From contig NC_045147.1 of assembly GCF_008831285.2 (NCBI RefSeq), positions 2,692,001 through 2,756,000 on the forward strand: DNA of 64,000 bases, in the 5' to 3' direction. Origin of the DNA: Nymphaea colorata. Lineage: Eukaryota; Streptophyta; Magnoliopsida; Nymphaeales; Nymphaeaceae. Of the stretch, positions 44,506 to 52,640 are shown piece after piece (position 1 is the stretch's first letter; each line of letters opens with the position of its first letter). Made by a program: the position numbers and the translations under genes. The notes under the pieces were generated by a model, which was not told where the DNA came from, made no database searches, and saw only the letters and a program-made list of their open reading frames with translations.

Positions 44506-44963
44506 GGTAGGCAGGCATCGGTCCACCCCAACTTGTTCACAATCATCCACTCCAACTTGTTCACAATAATCGTGTGTCTTTCTTTTCCTAGGCTTTTTGT
44601 GAAGATGTCCGCGAGCTGGTTTTTGCTTTTGACATGAGATGTTGCAAAGGTGCCATCTTGAATTTTTTTTCGAACGAAATGACAATCGACTTCAATATGT
44701 TTTGTTCGTTCATAAAACACAGGGTTTGCACCAACATGAATAGCAGCCACGTTGTCGCACATAAGTTCCATTGGAGAGTGAGTTTCGACCTTTATATCGA
44801 GGGGTTTAATCCAAATCAATTCATATGTACATACGGCCATGGCTCGGTACTCAGCCTATGCGTTGGATCGGGCAACTATGGCCTGTTTTTTACTTCACCA
44901 TGTGATCAAATTTTTTCCAATAAATGTGCAGTAACCTGATTTTGACCATCTATCATTTTGTCC
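44499..44963 (-). pseudogene. Copia RNase H, distal part
   Basis: The minus frame shows RWSKSGYCTFIGKNLITW, SKKQAIVARSNA and AEYRAMAVCTYELIWI. After these come CDNVAAIHVGANPVF, RTKHIEVDCHFVR and KSKNQLADIFTKSLG. All are standard copia RNase H blocks. Stops interrupt the W*SKK and NA*AEY junctions. The proximal part (GFCDADWA) lies at 52680-52645 on the other side of the hAT insertion. Confidence 0.9.
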
Positions 44964-44971
44964 CAGCCCAA
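44964..44971. other. Left target-site duplication of the hAT element (partner 52633-52640)
   Basis: CAGCCCAA precedes the TAGGG end and CAGCCCAG follows the CCCTA end. They are 8 bases, 7 identical, the length expected for hAT elements. Confidence 0.85.
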
Positions 44972-45150
44972 TAGGGGTGCACAACGAGTCGAGTTACTCG
45001 AACTCGACTCGTTAGTGTAAACGAGCTGCTTCATTAGTTAAACGAGTCTAGCTCGAGTTCAAGAGTCAACTTGTTTAACTAATCGAGTCGAGCTCGAGTT
45101 CACTTTGCAAACTCGTTAAAGCTCGACTCGGCTCGATTAACATACCGGTT
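44972..45150. repeat. Left terminal inverted repeat and CGAG subterminal array of the hAT
   Basis: TAGGGGTGCACAACGAG is followed by GTCGAGTTACTCGAACTCG, GTTAAACGAGTCTAGCTCG and related words on both strands. A short palindrome ACCGGTTTT...AAAACCGGT lies at 45145-45168. Confidence 0.8.
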
Positions 45151-45219
45151 TTAAAAAAACCGGTTCACTAGTCACGACTCACTTTGCGAACGGGAAAGGG
45201 TTTTTTTTCGTTCTAGGGT

Positions 45220-45514
45220 TTGTTAACTTTGTTTTCGTTCTCCCGCTCTCTCTCCGACTCCGACTCTCCCTCTCTGGCCTCTCGACTCTCGCCTCCTTCT
45301 CCGCCTGTGCTCCCGCCCTGCTTCACTGTGCTTCTTCTCCGCCCGCCTGTGCTCTGCGCTCCTGCTGCCCTACGAGGCTGCGTCAGTGTACTCGCCGCGG
45401 CCACTTTCGTCTCTGGAAACGCGGAGGCGAAGGAGCGCCTCCCTCTCGAGCTTACCCCGCGCAACGTCGTGCTCTATCAGTACGAAGCATGCCCCTTCTG
45501 CAACAAGGTTAAAG
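45220..45514 (+). pseudogene. Captured exon 1 of a prostaglandin E synthase 2-like (thioredoxin/GST-fold) protein
   Basis: The frame from 45220 starts MLTLFSFSRSLSDSDSPSL, Ser/Pro-rich as in an organelle-targeting leader. It then reads NAEAKERLPLELTPRNVVLYQ followed by EACPFCNKVK. In plants VVLYQ(Y/F)EACPFCNKVKAFLDY is the start of the thioredoxin-like domain of the membrane-associated PGES2-like proteins; the CPFC redox motif is intact. Homology stops right after NKVK at AAAG|GTGAAC, an apparent exon-intron border, and the next exon is not found. This is a fragment carried inside the hAT element, same strand as the transposase. Its start codon and leader are still open, so a chimeric transcript into the element is possible but not shown. 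Confidence 0.8.
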
Positions 45515-47051
45515 GTGAACCCACGGAATTTTACTTCTCTTACACTGTTCCGGTAGATTTTTTATGTGCGCCGATTTTGCGTACCGTTGGAACGTATAGT
45601 TGGCTTGTTAAGTTGAGTAGCAGAGGAAAGAAACATTGCCTGTGTGTTGTGAAAAATTTTAATGTTTCTTGCGATTACACATACCATGACACGTTGGTTT
45701 TAAGTTGATCGTTCTTGATGTTCTTTTAGTGTGTTTGTTTGTTTATCACGGAAATCGAGTGTTGAAGCAAGTTCCAAGCAAGACTTATCAGTGAGAAAGT
45801 ATAAGATTCAGTAGACATTACCCTTTATTGGATTTACTTCTCCCTGGTGTCGGATGATTATGATTTGCTTCTGACATCTACTAACTTGATGTGGATGGAA
45901 GTGAATGATGAAATTAAGACTCAAATGTTCTATAAACTGGGAATTTCTGCAGACTTTTCTTTTCCTAAGGAAGCCTTCTGTTGTTAAATTTTCCAAAACC
46001 CCATTGTGTAATAGGTTCGCTGCCAGGTTGAGTCGATATAAGATACTTTATAATTTCATAGAAATTTTCAGCTTTACCCTTTTTAGGATGATAGTTGTAT
46101 TTTTGAGTTTTTTTTTGTTTAAACCAAAATACAATAATGTGGTTACCTGTTATTTCACATACAAAAAATTAAGATGAAGGAAGCACCCTCTAGCCCCATA
46201 CAAATGAATGACTTGAAGCTATCTTTATGCTTGCGACAGTAAATGCCAATTTACTCGTCCAGAAGTGCAAATTTTGATTGGCCTTGTTGTGCACATGATT
46301 GACATGTTATTTATTTATTTATTTATTTTTCCTGCTTAAGTAGTTACTGTTGAATTTTAAGAAGCATTTTGCAAATTTTATATGCTGAAAACTTAATCTT
46401 AAGTATGTAAGATTTTTAAATTCGGACATGGGTGACAATTTGTGTTTGTGAATCCTTAGATAGCTTATATTTTGGTTATAGTGGATACCTCAAGACTGTA
46501 TTATCCCTGACTGGCAAATTTCCCAAGTATGCTAGGCTAATGTGGTATGTAGTTTGAGTCGAGATCCAACTAATTTTGGTTTACATAACATCATTTAGAT
46601 AAAGAAAATTGGTTAGTTTTTTGGCCAAACATGTTGTTACATAGTAAATGGGGGGAAAAGATCCCCATCGAAAGAAAAGATCCCCATCGAAAGAAAAAAT
46701 GGAACTCCACTACCTGCAAGACCAGTAAAAGCATTTCGGCTGCCAGATAGCTGCTGAATATGGAACTCAATTTCTGTCGCATGGATGCATCTAAATATAT
46801 GTCTGTCACACTATTTCAGTTTATGTCTTATGCTTTCAGATAACATACCATTTGCTTCCATGTTGTATGATTGTGATCATGTGAGCAGAATGAGATTCTA
46901 GTCTACCCACCTCAAGTATCTCATTATGATGATTGAACAATCTTCTTGTTTGATTAGACGTAACTGGTAATATGCTTGTTGATGAGTAGTTTCTTTTCAT
47001 GTTCAAATAGGAGAATAGCTTGAGCAGGAGGGAAAATTACTAGTTTGAAGA
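45515..47051. other. Interior of the hAT element, no recognised coding
   Basis: It begins with the intron-like continuation of the captured exon. TTCAAATAG just before 47012 could be an acceptor feeding the transposase exon. A short duplicated GATCCCCATCGAAAGAAAA occurs at 46660-46695. Otherwise nothing is recognised. Confidence 0.5.
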
Positions 47052-49250
47052 ATGACAAATTTAGGAAGCTCGAGCATTAATAAGGGCAAACAAGTATGTG
47101 ATTCGAGACCGAGATCAGATGATGTTCCAATCGAAGTACATTCCTCCAATGAAACTCCTATAGATTCGCAAGACCCTGACTATGAAGGGGTTTTAATAGA
47201 TGCTCATGAAGTACGTATAAGTGGTGCAAAAAGGTCAAAGTCAAAGACTTCTACAATATGGAATGATTTTGACGAGGTTGTTATAAATGGTATAAAAAAA
47301 GGAAAATGTAAATACTGCAGTGCACTATTTTCGATAAGTGGAGGAGGCTCTACATCATCAATGAGAAGACACAAATATTTGACACGTTTTGCTAACAAAA
47401 AGCAAACGACTTTAAGTTTTAAATCTGAGACTACTTCAGATGTCACGAAGAAGCTTATGGAAATTGGTTCCAACATTGATGATCAAGCAATAAGAGAGTT
47501 AATTGCAAAACTAGTGGCAACCGGAGAACATGCTTTTTCCATAGTGGATAATTGTTGGTTTAGGTTCATTCTTAGGCTTGGTTTTCCTAATTGGGTGCCA
47601 GTTTCAAGAACGACAGTTAAGAGAGATGTCATGAAATTATATGAAGATGAAAAGAAGAAATTGCTCATTGTCTTCAAGGGTGTTGAGAAGATTGCTTTGA
47701 CTACAGATATGTGGACATCAAACCAACAACTTGGATATTTGGCATTAACAGCACATTTCATTGATAAAGATTGGAAGATGCAACAATGTATCATCAACTT
47801 TACCAAAATTGAGCCACCTCATATTGGGTTAGTTTTAGTAAATATAATTGCTAAGCATCTTGCAGAGTGGGAGATTAAAAAGAAAATAATATCTATTACA
47901 GTTGACAACGCTTCATCAAATGATGTTCTTGTCAGAAAATTAAAAGAAAACATGGAAAAGAGCGGCATCAACTTGTATCATAGAGGTAAATTTTTTCATG
48001 TGCGATGTTGTGCACATATTTTGAATATAATGGTACAAGATGGGTTGAGTGCCATTAAGGATGAAATCATTAGCATTAGAGAGGCAGTTAAATATATCAA
48101 AGTTTTACCTTCAAGACTCCATGGTTTTGCAGCTGCAGCTAGAGAGTTGGATCTTTCAACGTCAAAGAAGTTAGTGTTAGATGTACCAACTCGATGGAAT
48201 TCAACATATTTTATATTGGAAAGAGCTCTTTTATATAAAGATGCTTTTGCAAGATATAGCATGGAAGACCCAGGTTTGGTATGGTTGCTTGGACCCGAGG
48301 ATTGGGAAAAAATTGCAGTGATATGTGATTTTCTTCAAGTTTTTTATTCAGTGTCGACCCTATTTTCTGGGCATCTTATGCAACAGCAAACTTATATTTT
48401 CTTGAAATTTGGAGAGTTCAAGCAATATTGCAGGAAAAAGTTGAAAGTGAAGGTGGGTTTATGAAGGCAATGGCAGTGAAAATGAAGGAGAAATTTGATA
48501 AATATTGGAAATCCTGTAACTTGATAATGATTATTGCATCCATATTAGATCCACGCGTGAAACTCACATTATCAGAATTTGTCTTTTCAAGAATTTACCA
48601 ATCAAGAGAAGAAAGGGAAGAACAAATGCAAATGGTAAAACAATCTTTACAAGATGTATATCAAAGTTACATTCAAAGAAATGAAGTGGATGTCAATATT
48701 TCTACTGCTTCAACTAATTCCGCTAGTATTCAAAGTCGAGAGAGTCGAGACACCCCACAATGTGGAATAAATCTATTTTTTAACTTGTTAGGTAAAGCTG
48801 AGAATGTTGCTTTTCAGGTCACCAAATCTGAGATAGACACTTATTTGAAGGACGGATTGATTAAGCATGATAATAATGGTGATGCTTTTTCTTTCAATAT
48901 TTTGCAATGGTGGAAGGATAAGGAATCTAAGTATCGAATTCTTTTACAAATGGCACGTGATTTGTTGTCAATTCCAATAACTTCTGTTGCTTCAGAAAGA
49001 GCTTTCAGTACAGGAGGTTGAATTGTTAATGATAGTCATAGTTCATTGGTGCCAAAAACAGTTGAAGCTGTGGTTTGTTTGGGTAATTGGGTAAAGAATG
49101 ATGGTGATCCAATGCATGAAGTTGTAACACAAGTAAGTATATTTTGAATAAATTGTATTCATTAAATATTTTGTGAATCATTTGTTAATTGACTATATGT
49201 ATTTCTTTCAGGTTGAGGATGAATCAAGTGAATATATATCATTAGAATGA
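47052..49250 (+). pseudogene. hAT transposase (BED zinc finger, RICESLEEPER/DAYSLEEPER type), broken
   Basis: The N-terminal BED finger spans about residues 65-110 (W70, F73, C86, C89, H107; the last zinc ligand is not evident). The catalytic core has D219 in TTDMWTS, D285 in TVDNASSND, the RCCAHILN motif near 319-325 and W382 in TRWNST. At 48371-48374 a 1-base deletion shifts the frame; the correct continuation reads ATANLYFLEIWR and joins the second frame (48428 on). That frame holds ILDPRVKL, the dimerisation domain ILQWWKDKESKYRILLQMARD, and the catalytic Glu in SVASERAFSTGG. A TGA at 49019-49021 replaces the usual Arg after STGG, a change consistent with CGA to TGA. A last intron (GTAAGT at 49133, acceptor before 49212) leads to VEDESSEYISLE and the true stop. 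It would cut and paste the element in the nucleus, but with two lesions it is probably inactive. Confidence 0.9.
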
Positions 49251-49625
49251 TTCAAGTTGCCTCTTGGTAATGCCTTTTTTTTTTGTTGTTTTGTTTTCTT
49301 CTTTTTCTTGATTTAATGTGATTCTAGTGTCTGTTTCAGTTGCCTCTTGTAGTTTTTCTTGATCTTTTTCTGTGTACTGGTTTTATTCATTTGCTTATTG
49401 TTCTAGTGTCTGTTTCAGATGGAAAACTTCTTGCTTCAAAAGGATATGTTAATCGAGCCTTAAACGAGCTCCAAAATGATGGGCCACCTGAATTCCAGAT
49501 AATTTTCTGAACACAGATTGTGTACTGAATTGCCTTCATGGCTGTAGATCTTGTATTCCACTTTCAAAGATTCTATGACTGCTATTCCTTGTTGAATCTT
49601 AGAAGTGTAAACATTGGTTTTGTTC

Positions 49626-49678
<53 letters not shown>

Positions 49679-50147
49679 CATGTATTCCATCACATAGTAT
49701 TGTTTTGAATACATAAGCATGTACATGTGTAGATCTTTTTCATGTGTATTTTTATTTTTTTCCTCTGTATTTTTCTATTCTTTTCTTGTATTTTTGTTCC
49801 CTATTTTCTGTTGCCTTTGTATCAGCCGACTAGCCATTGGCTAGTTCCAACAAGGAGCTGTGTTTTCTTTGGGAGTGGGAATCAGTTCTCTTTGTATCTT
49901 TGTGCACTCGAACCACCAACTTCGTAGTGGCTGCCTTAGATTGTGAGATGGTTGGAGGGGGGAGCGATGGAACATTGGAGCTTTATGCAAGGAATTTGTC
50001 TTGTTGATGAAGTCAAAGAAGTGCTTTTTCTGGCCTATGTCCAACATGAGATTGCTGTCTCAGATTATAGGTATTGGCGTACTGCTTGGTCTGTGGTAGG
50101 TATCGATGAGGCGTGCTGTCTGAACATACATGTTGCATTTCTTCCAG
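49251..50147. other. hAT interior, 3' of the transposase
   Basis: Contains a (TA)n microsatellite at 49629-49674. After TGTCTGTTTCAG at 49419 a short open stretch (GKLLASKGYVNRALNELQND in one frame) could be another captured exon but matches nothing I know. Otherwise no recognised coding. Confidence 0.4.
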
Positions 50148-51012
50148 TTAATTGCAGAAGTTGCAGAGGATATCTGGGATCGTTATGGCTATGATTTTGG
50201 GACTGATTATTCTGGACTTTTTGCTGCCCTTTCTCATATAAAATTTAATGTAAGGGAGGCAGCTGCAGAGGCATTAGCTGCAGCGCTGGATGAAATCTTG
50301 ATTCTATACAGGTTCATCATGTTCCAGTTATGCTTTTCAATTATGTGATAGGTGAACCTTTTTAACTACTTTCTTTGGCAGGAAATCCTTTCAAATTTAT
50401 TTTCATTGATGGAACAGATATAAACTGGCTTGGTAGACAAGGAATAGCCTTGGCTTTATACTCATCTGCTGATGTTTTGAGAACTATGGATCTTCCTATG
50501 GTCATGACATTTTTAATATCCTGTGCACTGGTAGGTTCTTCTGACCTGAACATGGTTTTAGTTTTGTTATGCCTTTCCAGTCTTTCCTTCTTCTGAATGT
50601 TTAACTTATTTTTCTTTTCTTTTTGATATAGTGAAGTACCTCATTTTATTTCTGATTTCTTTTGTTTAATCATATTCTAATAGACTAATACTAATGTATT
50701 GCTATAACTTTCCTTTCTTTACTTCTCTTCCGTTCCCTTGTTGTTCATGTTGAGATCTGCAAATGTTTTGACAAATTTTTGTTTTATTTTTCCTCTTTGG
50801 TATTGTGAAACACATAATTTTATTTCTGACATTTTTTTGTCAACAAAATTTTATATACTAATGTATTTCTATAGTTTCTCATTGTTTTATTTTCTTTGAA
50901 GAACGTGTATGATATATGACCTTTTTGGCCAATGTAATTGCAGGCTGACCCTAATATGGATGTTCGTGCCAGAATGATAGATGCTGGTATCGTGATTGTT
51001 GACAAACATGGT
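50148..51012 (+). pseudogene. ILA: Captured exons of translational regulator GCN1 (ILITYHIA)
   Basis: Exon A (50148-50311) reads LIAEVAEDIWDRYGYDFGTD followed by YSGLFAALSHIKFNVREAA and AEALAAALDE. Exon B (50383-50530) holds DINWLGRQGIALALYSSADV then LRTMDLPMVMTFLISCAL. Exon C (50944-51012) reads ADPNMDVRARMIDAGIVIVD then KHG. These are consecutive HEAT-repeat segments of plant GCN1, which activates GCN2 kinase on stalled ribosomes and supports immunity and cold tolerance (family knowledge). Introns with CAG acceptors and GT donors at the expected places separate the pieces, so genomic DNA, not cDNA, was captured. A frameshift near the start of exon B and the absence of the rest of the roughly 2,600-residue protein make this a fragment. 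A short NTSILLPLL frame at 51033 may be further decayed GCN1. Confidence 0.85.
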
Positions 51013-51743
51013 ATCGTGATTTTTTAGAAGTGAACACGTCAATATTGCTGCCTCTTCTCGTTGCAGCTCAAACTGCTCAACTTCAAAAACTCTCACCAGA
51101 AAACGATGTGTCCGCCCCTCCCTTTGGTGAGCAGTCTGGCAGTGACAGTAACATCTCCGGTGGCGGCAGCTCTCTCCCTGGCTGTGGCAGCTCTTTCTCT
51201 ATGGCAGCAGCATTCTCTTCACATTGCAGCTTAAGCTACTCAATATCAGATAATCTCACCAGAGATTCAAAAAATGCTGACATCCACCCCTGCCTTCAGT
51301 GAATTAGTTTTTTCTTGCTAGAATATTATCTTGAGAACAATCACATTTAGCTTAACATTTTTTTGTCTATGAAATTTGCTTTGTTTTCTTTGAACCCTTC
51401 ACAATTTGCATTCAGTTTTGCTCCTTTTTTTTCTGATTGCTTAGTGAATGGTGGAAGTTCATAGCATTTGAACCCATCTTGTTTTATGCAAGTAGTCACA
51501 TATGTAAGTGTCGTAACATGGTAACAGGTTGCCAAAATTCTTTACCCGTCCAACTGGTTTGAATTTAACCTTCCCTATTACTGTTTTCCGAACTTCATTC
51601 TTTTGATTGGTCAGGCTGCAATGATCAGCCATGCAAAATACAAATGAGGTATGAAATCAAGGTCGATAAATGTTGGATTGTCTGCATGTCTTCGATAAAC
51701 CCCATATTGGTTTATATTTCTGATAAAAATGTGATTCATGTAG

Positions 51744-52140
51744 GAATGATGCTGTTGAGGATGGTATCTTCAATGACCTGTTTGTTTTTCAGCATGATCT
51801 ACTAAGAGACTTGGCCATGTATTCTGCCAAGTCTAATTGTTGCAAATCATCACTGTTCTTTTGTGACGTTGATGAGGCCAATTGCCATTCAGGACTGAAT
51901 ATTGCAGACATGTTTCCAGAGCTCACAGAACTCAAGATTGACTATTGCAGTAATTTGGTGCGTCTACCTCCTGGATTATGTGAGATTATCAAACTAAAGA
52001 GCCTCAGATTTTTTGATGTGTCTGACTGTGCAACCATCAGTAGCTTCCCTGATGAATTTGGTGACCTGACAGGTCTGAGAAAGATCAACATGAGGTGGTG
52101 TTTGCAGTCATTGCTTGTATGTTTGCAGTCATTGCTTGTA
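51744..52140 (+). pseudogene. Captured fragment of an RPW8-type helper NLR (ADR1/NRG1 class)
   Basis: The frame reads GIFNDLFVFQHDLLRDLAMY, the QHDLLR.LA block at the end of the NB-ARC region in ADR1/NRG1 proteins. It then reads MFPELTELKIDYCSNLVRLP followed by PGLCEIIKLKSL, the characteristic first CNL-R LRRs (usual LTIDYCxDLVxLPxGxCDI). It jumps to LRFFDVSDCATISSFPDEFG and LRKINMRWC, which belong to a later LRR. The middle LRRs are deleted and the N-terminal RPW8 and most of NB-ARC are absent. Helper NLRs form calcium channels that transmit immune signals (family knowledge); this piece cannot do so. It ends in a 21-bp tandem repeat. Confidence 0.82.
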
Positions 52141-52142
52141 TG
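52101..52142. repeat. 21-bp tandem repeat within the NLR fragment
   Basis: TTTGCAGTCATTGCTTGTAT plus G occurs twice in tandem. A third partial copy (CAGTCATTGCTTGTATG plus TATAATGTAT) is at about 52217-52244, each followed by similar sequence. Confidence 0.9.
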
Positions 52143-52335
52143 TATAATGTATCACGAACTTGAAATTTTCCACTATGCCCCTCAGATTGTTCTTGCTGTG
52201 ATCTCGAACTTGATACAGTCATTGCTTGTATGTATAATGTATTTCAAAAATTGTTGACAATCTGAACATAATTAATGCCAGGTGGTTTTATATATCTTTT
52301 TGATGAAACTGTTAGCAGTAATACAATTGGTTTGA

Positions 52336-52632
52336 TTCAGTAAACGAGTTAAACGAGTCGAGCTCGACTATTGGTTTAATTCTTAAACGTTAAACGAGTC
52401 AAGCTCGACTAAACGAGTTAAACGAGTTGAGCTCGACTATTGGTTTAATAATTAAACGTTAAACGAGTTAAACGAGCCGAGCTCGAACTCGACTATGTAT
52501 AGTCGAGTCGAGCTTGAGCTCGTGTTAGGAACTCGACTCGAGTTCGAGTTCGAGTTCGAGCTCGAGCTTTTCGAGCCGAGTCGAGTTCGAGCTGGGCGAG
52601 CTCGAGCTCGACTCGGCTCGTGTGCAGCCCTA
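52336..52632. repeat. Right subterminal array and terminal inverted repeat of the hAT
   Basis: AAACGAGTTAAACGAGTCG with GCTCGACTATTGGTTTAA occurs at 52342 and again at 52411, a 69-bp tandem. Alternating CTCGAG/TTCGAG words follow to the end CGTGTGCAGCCCTA at 52632. Confidence 0.85.
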
Positions 52633-52640
52633 CAGCCCAG

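Follow-up and report, generated by a model that had tools for sequence, protein, structure and literature searches.

A hAT element and its cargo

The 64-kb window analyzed here, positions C10:2692001-2756000 of the 407.8-Mb Nymphaea colorata genome, contains a transposon of the hAT superfamily that occupies exactly positions 44972-52632 of the window. The element is 7661 bases long, starts with TAGGGGTGCACAACGAG and ends with CTCGTGTGCAGCCCTA, and carries short hAT-type terminal inverted repeats (TIRs) of the TAGGGSTGCACA type, inverted at both ends with no more than two mismatches. It is flanked by an 8-bp target-site duplication in which the left and right copies agree at seven positions, and it is a cut-and-paste hAT element that is now defective. 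Cargo makes up 3438 of the 7661 bases (45%) and comes from six unlinked donor loci, which lie on different chromosomes (C9, C1, C10, C4, C6, and C3). A first interpretation made from the letters of the window (the sequence-only reading) had proposed both ends, the imperfect duplication, a transposase, and pieces of at least three host genes, and the ends proved to be exact and the duplication as stated. The element is built up as follows, with relatives of its parts given by locus (L numbers) and chromosome (C numbers).

44964-44971: left target-site duplication, CAGCCCAA, 7/8 identity with the right copy
44972-45392, plus strand: left TIR with subterminal repeats and the 5' leader (44972-45371 82% identical to L020; common to many family members)
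45393-46624, plus strand: PGES2-like fragment, sense, part of exon 1 and the following non-coding DNA (98.2% over 1227 ungapped bases)
46707-46758, plus strand: 52-bp remnant of a NUP50/RanBP1-domain gene, antisense (L023, C1, 98.1%)
46767-49433, plus strand: native hAT core including the transposase region (96% to L020)
47049-49021, plus strand: hAT transposase pseudogene, open reading frames (ORFs) 47049-48464 and 48329-49021
49766-49860, plus strand: native 3' segment (96.8% to L018)
49879-50076, plus strand: piece of the DNA downstream of a PPR ORF, sense (L039, C10, 95.0%)
50082-51011, plus strand: GCN1/ILITYHIA fragment, exons and the DNA between them, sense (L013, C4, 98.0% over 930 ungapped bases)
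51049-51680, plus strand: C6 segment (L014, C6:11092093-11092725, 97.9%)
51697-52107, plus strand: RPW8-type NLR fragment, sense, lacking two internal stretches of the donor (L027, C3, three blocks of 95.2-98.3%)
52341-52632, plus strand: right subterminal repeats and TIR
52633-52640: right target-site duplication, CAGCCCAG, the state seen in three of four empty-site relatives

The matches to PGES2-like, GCN1/ILITYHIA, and NLR proteins that the sequence-only reading had recognized are real, and each is a DNA-level copy of a donor, on C9, C4, and C3, respectively. It had overlooked three further pieces, those from the NUP50 gene, the PPR flank, and C6, and its statement that all of the captured pieces run on the transposase strand holds for the PGES2, GCN1, NLR, and PPR-flank fragments but not for the NUP50 remnant. 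The genome searches scored only the best candidates, and it is to these that the term listed matches refers below; none of the listed matches has the fragments adjacent to each other outside a hAT element. Three stretches of the window copy (46625-46706, 49434-49765, and 52108-52340) gave no donor and, except for 21 bases, no match to a reference relative.

The donors were identified largely from the sequence that surrounds the captured blocks. The PGES2-like donor is C9:24127537-24128784 (L012:2038-3285, minus strand), where an exon 1.4 kb downstream matches prostaglandin E synthase 2 (PDB 1z9h, E 6.7e-10); the label leans on such other donor exons because the window piece on its own gave a PDB match of only E 0.04. 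The GCN1 donor is C4:25171259-25172217, of which the captured piece is about 30 bp short, and an exon 3 kb away matches GCN1 (PDB 7nrc, E 3.4e-7) and the Pfam domain HEAT_EF3_N (E 1.2e-11), although chain LR of PDB 8i9x, labelled ribosomal protein L19, outscores 7nrc. A short related hAT element (L050:437-1200, C4:25174386-25175149) lies in or beside this donor gene. The NLR donor, C3:21519820-21520827, has ORFs with NB-ARC and LRR domains, and the window piece itself matches RPW8-domain and ADR1 proteins in the PDB (best E 5.7e-21). The donor ORF of the NUP50 remnant matches the Pfam families NUP50 (E 1.3e-13) and Ran_BP1 (E 7.7e-18), and the PPR-flank donor holds a PPR ORF (PPR_2, E 5.1e-8). 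The C6 segment, which all of the 11 cargo copies described below carry except L007, has diverged relatives on C13, C11, and C2 among the listed matches. Pfam and PDB searches with captured pieces, or with some of the donor ORFs, of GCN1 and NHX yielded nothing useful, and domain searches of the C6 source locus, and of the C2 source found in a sister copy, pointed to no gene. Intact protein products are unlikely, since the GCN1 piece is about 30 bases short and the NLR piece has two deletions.

The PPR-flank fragment also occurs in L001, L002, and L007 and in a more distant element, L040 (C9:8340900-8344500), which has hAT-type ends and carries about 800 bp of the PPR-gene flank (L040:2134-2934) at 92-93% identity to L039. 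The window shares 198 bp of the flank that L040 carries at greater length, and this cargo may have passed between elements or may be old.

Sister copies and additional donors

Ten other copies carry cargo that overlaps with that of the window, giving a set of 11 cargo copies (the window copy, L001, L002, L003/L004, L005, L006, L007, L008, L009, L010, and L011) that was drawn from the best genome matches and is not a census. They contribute five additional sources, for a total of 11 donor loci, nine of which are at or beside a recognizable gene. One source is an SBP-box (SPL) gene on C7 (SBP, E 1.2e-17), represented in L003, L005, L006, and L007, and another, on C3, is an E-motif PPR gene (PPR_2, E 6.7e-56), represented in L005 and L006 only. 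An NHX-like donor on C10 contributed to L004, L008, L009, and L011, and to L010, identical to L009 but for one base; the NHX label comes from a PF00999 match that lies about 2.1 kb beyond the captured block, at C10:21944573, and scores 30.2 bits (E 2.8e-7; cut-off 26.2), while in another search of this donor it had E 4.1e-4. A C12 segment, found in L008-L011, comes from just upstream of a glycyl-tRNA-synthetase-like exon, a label based on a tRNA-synt_2e match that at 25.8 bits lies under the cut-off of 27, and a C2 segment is found in L004 alone.

Individual fragments differ in extent and in their neighbors from copy to copy. The NUP50 cargo measures 166 plus 628 bp in L003, 196 plus 180 bp in each of L005 and L006, and 199 bp in both L001 and L002; the window keeps 52 bp of it, and L008 and L011 each keep 37 bp. 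The sequence upstream of the NUP50 cargo is PGES2 in the window, L001, L002, L008, and L011 and SPL in L003, L005, and L006. An AT microsatellite at 49628-49675 is likewise variable in length between copies, the longest AT run being 46 bases in the window and 158 in L001. Cargo is in the sense orientation for eight of the nine donors with an assigned strand (binomial p 0.039), a count that was made post hoc and that includes non-coding pieces and weak labels.

We had taken L018-L020 to be native elements free of captures, and this was only partly right. The 5' pieces of L018 (L018:1139-2319, C9:9785953-9787133) match isolated loci at C11:9265707-9266332 (94%), C9:7327539-7327786 (96%), and C7:9617514-9617730 (95%). 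As these pieces stand in an element without the cargo of the window, capture may be family-wide.

Ends and cargo move as one unit

All 11 cargo copies are bounded by an 8-bp target duplication, perfect in the ten sister copies (ATGACAAG on both sides of L007, for example) and with seven of eight positions in the window copy; L017, a short copy free of cargo, has an 8/8 duplication as well. Each cargo copy having its own duplication, we conclude that the ends and the cargo move together as one unit. The family is also large, since a 17-base terminal pattern, TAGGGSTGCACAMSRRS, has 824 matches in the genome (403 forward and 421 reverse), compared to a single match for the reversed control.

In the window, the element interrupts a dispersed repeat, the two halves of which are

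44671-44971, minus strand: left half of the dispersed repeat, with ORFs, running on into the right half in L028-L031
52633-53400, minus strand: right half, matched by at least 40 scored genome candidates

We take this repeat, from motifs in its minus-strand ORFs, to be a Ty1/copia pol relic, although Pfam gave no such match in three flank ORFs. When 44971 is joined to 52641, about 400 positions across the joint can be aligned with four paralogous copies of the repeat, L028-L031, with identities of 82-85%, and the only gap near the joint is one of two bases, 10 bases to its left. These uninterrupted copies are paralogues and not an empty allele, and they agree with both ends belonging to one insertion. 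Three of them (L028, L029, and L031) have CAGCCCAG once and L030 has CAACCTAG, and therefore the right copy of the duplication looks ancestral and the left copy mutated. A plasmid search gave no match.

The transposase

The sequence-only reading had described a BED-hAT transposase carried by the element itself. Its hAT-like_RNase-H (E 5.6e-30) and Dimer_Tnp_hAT (E 2.4e-18) domains are evident in the window, as they are in L009 (2.5e-28 and 3.4e-28, respectively), but the zf-BED finger is under the Pfam cut-off in both (E 0.017 and E 0.028), and the transposase, while present, is broken in the window copy by a frame change between its two ORFs and a premature stop in the second, such that an alignment with the L009 frame runs over two frames and one stop. 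The transposase region is mostly kept in seven of the cargo copies (the window, L001, L003/L004, and L008-L011), partial in L002 and L007, and absent from L005 and L006. Those of L001, L008, and L011 are also broken. The frame of L003/L004 is long and open and can be aligned only from residue 9, with a long terminal repeat (LTR) element located just upstream. This is a 4.96-kb LTR retrotransposon lying within the hAT copy (L003:2583-7542, C13). Its 255-bp LTRs are identical to each other, it is flanked by a 5-bp duplication (CTTTC), and it must have inserted very recently.

An unbroken 698-residue transposase frame, starting with MTNLGSSS, stands beside the cargo in both L009 and L010. The two copies differ at one of 6750 bases and yet occupy different sites with different flanks and duplications, which points to recent movement of a cargo-bearing element. 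Judged from the open frame, L009 and L010 may be autonomous. In a FastTree analysis of 19 rows covering the transposase region, those seven cargo copies in which it is retained form one group with a support of 0.86. A 699-codon open transposase frame, 698 residues from the first ATG, is also found at L045 (C11:5544894-5547099).

Serial and nested captures

The order of the fragments shows that the cargo was not acquired in a single step. In L008, L009, and L011, the middle of the PGES2 fragment is replaced by a 1-kb C12 fragment nested within it, and an NHX-like fragment splits the NLR fragment in L004. In L008, L009, and L011 the NHX-like fragment follows the 5' part of the NLR fragment, the 3' part of which is gone, and at the NLR/NHX border of L004 alone there is the C2 fragment. 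A PPR fragment, partly inverted, is found at the place expected for the transposase in L005 and L006. From these nested and replaced fragments we conclude that captures accumulated and overwrote one another. The PPR fragment, which is confined to these two copies, is the closest of all to its donor (99.6% in L005). In those copies that keep the transposase, cargo lies on either side of the transposase exon, inward of the terminal regions.

Mechanism of capture

This hAT family has copied unlinked host fragments into both sides of its transposase exon and has subsequently spread with them. We propose that the fragments were acquired by break repair with template switching, and we regard this as very probable. 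In the proposed mechanism, a double-strand break or an excision gap would arise inside a hAT element, and the gap would be refilled by DNA synthesis that switches to an ectopic chromosomal template. End joining would then close the refilled gap, leaving a captured fragment. Copies in which the transposase exon and both ends are spared would keep moving, while those lacking the transposase would move only with help in trans.

We inspected 18 junctions, nine of which are gaps within one donor, with splice ends judged by eye. Neighboring BLAST blocks either share 0-11 bases at the junctions or have about 5-39 bases of filler between them, of which the GATCTGAGGGGCATTTAT type, repeated in L005, is an example. 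Gaps in the SPL, NUP50, and NLR blocks at first resembled removed introns, as would be expected if the fragments had been captured from spliced transcripts by way of complementary DNA. However, not one of the nine within-donor gaps is bounded by GT and AG (a single gap has GT, on the left, without AG), gaps within the same donor differ by copy (L003 compared to L005, and L007 compared to the window), and the PGES2 and GCN1 pieces retain non-coding DNA. The borders are not splice sites, and therefore capture was from DNA; a spliced-transcript origin is refuted for the gaps examined and is most improbable overall.

The principal alternative is fusion, in which two hAT copies come to flank host DNA and the whole is then mobilized as one unit. 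Such a model was put forward for Pack-CACTA elements and extended to all Pack-TYPE elements, with examples, in the accessible text of PMC8903248. A remnant of an internal end might then be expected, but with a 14-base pattern and up to two mismatches no internal TIR was found in any of the 11 cargo copies, apart from three 2-mismatch hits that fall in the PPR-donor sequence of L005 and of L006 and in the LTR element of L003. Similarly, 10 of the 11 donor neighborhoods (8.8-14.3 kb each, 117,033 bases in all 11) are without a related hAT in a scan for the ends of this family only, and the lone 2-mismatch pattern hit in two of these ten looks like chance. Fusion also leaves unexplained a fragment that lies amid an older captured fragment with no transposon end beside it. 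On the other hand, TIRs could have been lost since, the donor scan covered the ends of a single family, and one donor, that of GCN1, does have a related hAT about 2 kb from the captured block. Taken together, the junction overlaps and filler, the absence of internal TIRs, and the ten hAT-free neighborhoods favor template-switching repair over fusion without amounting to proof, and we consider fusion unlikely.

Nested insertion does occur in the family, as demonstrated by the LTR element in L003, and so the cargo could in principle have been captured first by a Helitron, a Pack-MULE, or an LTR element and have entered the hAT upon insertion of that element. Helitrons, a rolling-circle superfamily that differs from hAT elements in its ends and its transposition, make no target duplication and have Helitron ends, and Pack-MULEs have a duplication of about 9 bp and long TIRs; the copies described here have 8-bp duplications and a hAT transposase. 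Moreover, the 18 junctions judged by eye showed neither target duplications nor terminal repeats, no systematic search for Helitron or MULE ends having been made, and the donor blocks abut one another or hAT sequence. Among the listed matches, long cargo blocks are found only in family members and at single donor loci, with the exception of the diverged relatives of the C6 segment. Capture by another type of element is accordingly very unlikely. Least probable of all, to the point of being negligible, is the reverse direction of transfer, in which the host loci took their segments from the transposon. The donors continue past the captured block into conserved coding sequence (PPR, SBP, NB-ARC/LRR, NUP50/RanBP1, HEAT_EF3_N, PGES2, and Na_H_Exchanger), and no ends of this hAT family are present at the captured borders in the donors; for the C6 and C2 loci, gene content gives no verdict.

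Several observations nevertheless weigh against capture by template-switching repair as we propose it, or against parts of the proposal. The mechanism is deduced from its end products, no capture event having been observed, and the junction overlaps are raw counts that may include chance matches. The hAT element near the GCN1 donor suits the fusion model. Divergence from the donors follows the nesting only in part, as the C2 fragment (97.4%), younger by nesting, is less donor-like than the NHX-like fragment (98.3%), and for the C12 fragment, although nested, the similarity to the donor (98.3%) hardly differs from that of PGES2 (98.2%). Different rates of change in coding and non-coding DNA could explain this mismatch, and because of it we hold the proposal slightly less firmly than we otherwise would. 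The support for the cargo clade in the transposase tree is moderate, and L041 and L042, which lie outside the comparison of cargo, adjoin that clade. The autonomy that we suggest for L009 and L010 is likewise read from an open frame.

Comparison to known systems

That a transposase-bearing hAT should capture genes was regarded in the sequence-only reading as little described, but there is a precedent from 2008 in the Hatvine-6 elements of grapevine (Benjak et al., 2008; PMC2528002), followed by maize Ds elements (PMC3260210) and Pack-hAT elements (PMC8903248). Gene capture by hAT elements is therefore already known, and what is new here is an unusually rich and well-resolved case. With this qualification, the observations made from the sequence of the window are confirmed and their interpretation is supported.

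The accessible portions of these reports allow the following comparisons. Hatvine-6 copies have a transposase and TIRs in common, whereas their remaining sequence varies and in many cases corresponds to exons and introns of the host, and the tabulated copies include 35 with more than 90% of the transposase and 17 with potentially functional ORFs (PMC2528002). The family in N. colorata is alike in its shared transposase and ends, its variable genic interior, and its transposase-bearing copies, a match of features and not of sequence kinship, and it differs from the 13-bp TIRs and 9-bp duplication of Hatvine-6 (PMC2528002). A serial order of captures, nested capture, and a recent pair of cargo copies are not described in those portions of the Hatvine-6 account (PMC2528002). 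Pack-hAT and other Pack-TYPE elements likewise have host gene fragments between their ends, here hAT ends, with a target duplication and multiple copies, but as presented in the available text they are non-autonomous by definition and acquire their cargo by fusion (Gisby and Catoni, 2022; PMC8903248). Several of the cargo copies described here, by contrast, keep transposase sequence, and the borders of their cargo favor template switching. In our set, host gene fragments lie between intact ends and their donor loci are found. Non-autonomy applies to L005 and L006, which have no transposase, and to the broken window copy, L001, L008, and L011, but by sequence it does not apply to L009 and L010, with their open frame of 698 residues.

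The maize Ds2 and Ds-l4 elements also belong to the hAT superfamily and carry genomic fragments that include introns from a donor on another chromosome, although these are Ds elements that need Ac and number 11 (two Ds2 and nine Ds-l4). The part of that report available terms the carriage of gene fragments a rare feature of hAT elements, with a capture mechanism that is not known (PMC3260210). Metazoan Pack-TIRs are similar in that capture by gap filling or template switching with microhomology is described for them, in the accessible text, but they are from animals and mostly single-copy; a multicopy hAT case among them, Pack-hAT-N8_XT, has three distinct target duplications and one 291-bp fragment (PMC8277862). 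A stepwise addition of gene fragments is described, in the text at hand, for maize helitrons (PMC3288121). In the accessible titles and passages on hAT gene capture, outside of which are most subscription journals and preprints, nested serial capture by a hAT element is not described, and of the papers found for N. colorata and hAT elements none is relevant by its title.

Implications

How cut-and-paste elements acquire genes is an unsettled matter, with fusion (PMC8903248) and gap filling or template switching (PMC8277862) both put forward, as far as the accessible texts of the two reports go. The family described here is a stepwise record of capture, with donors that are about 95-99.6% identical, captures within captures, readable junctions, and a hAT element that has partly kept its transposase, and it permits the fusion and template-switching models to be compared junction by junction. 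It also provides named parent genes (NLR, GCN1, SPL, and others) for work on transcripts and small RNAs, and these genes might be affected by way of chimeric transcripts or small RNAs. Finally, we suggest, as a tentative idea that may well turn out to be wrong, that a still-active, self-mobilizing hAT lineage serves as a standing gene-shuffling device, in which the flanks of the transposase exon would be repeated docking sites for template-switching capture while the transposase is kept, with new captures falling within older ones and mostly in the sense orientation. If that is the case, transcripts driven by the element could join parts of immune, translation, redox, transcription, and transport genes into chimeras.

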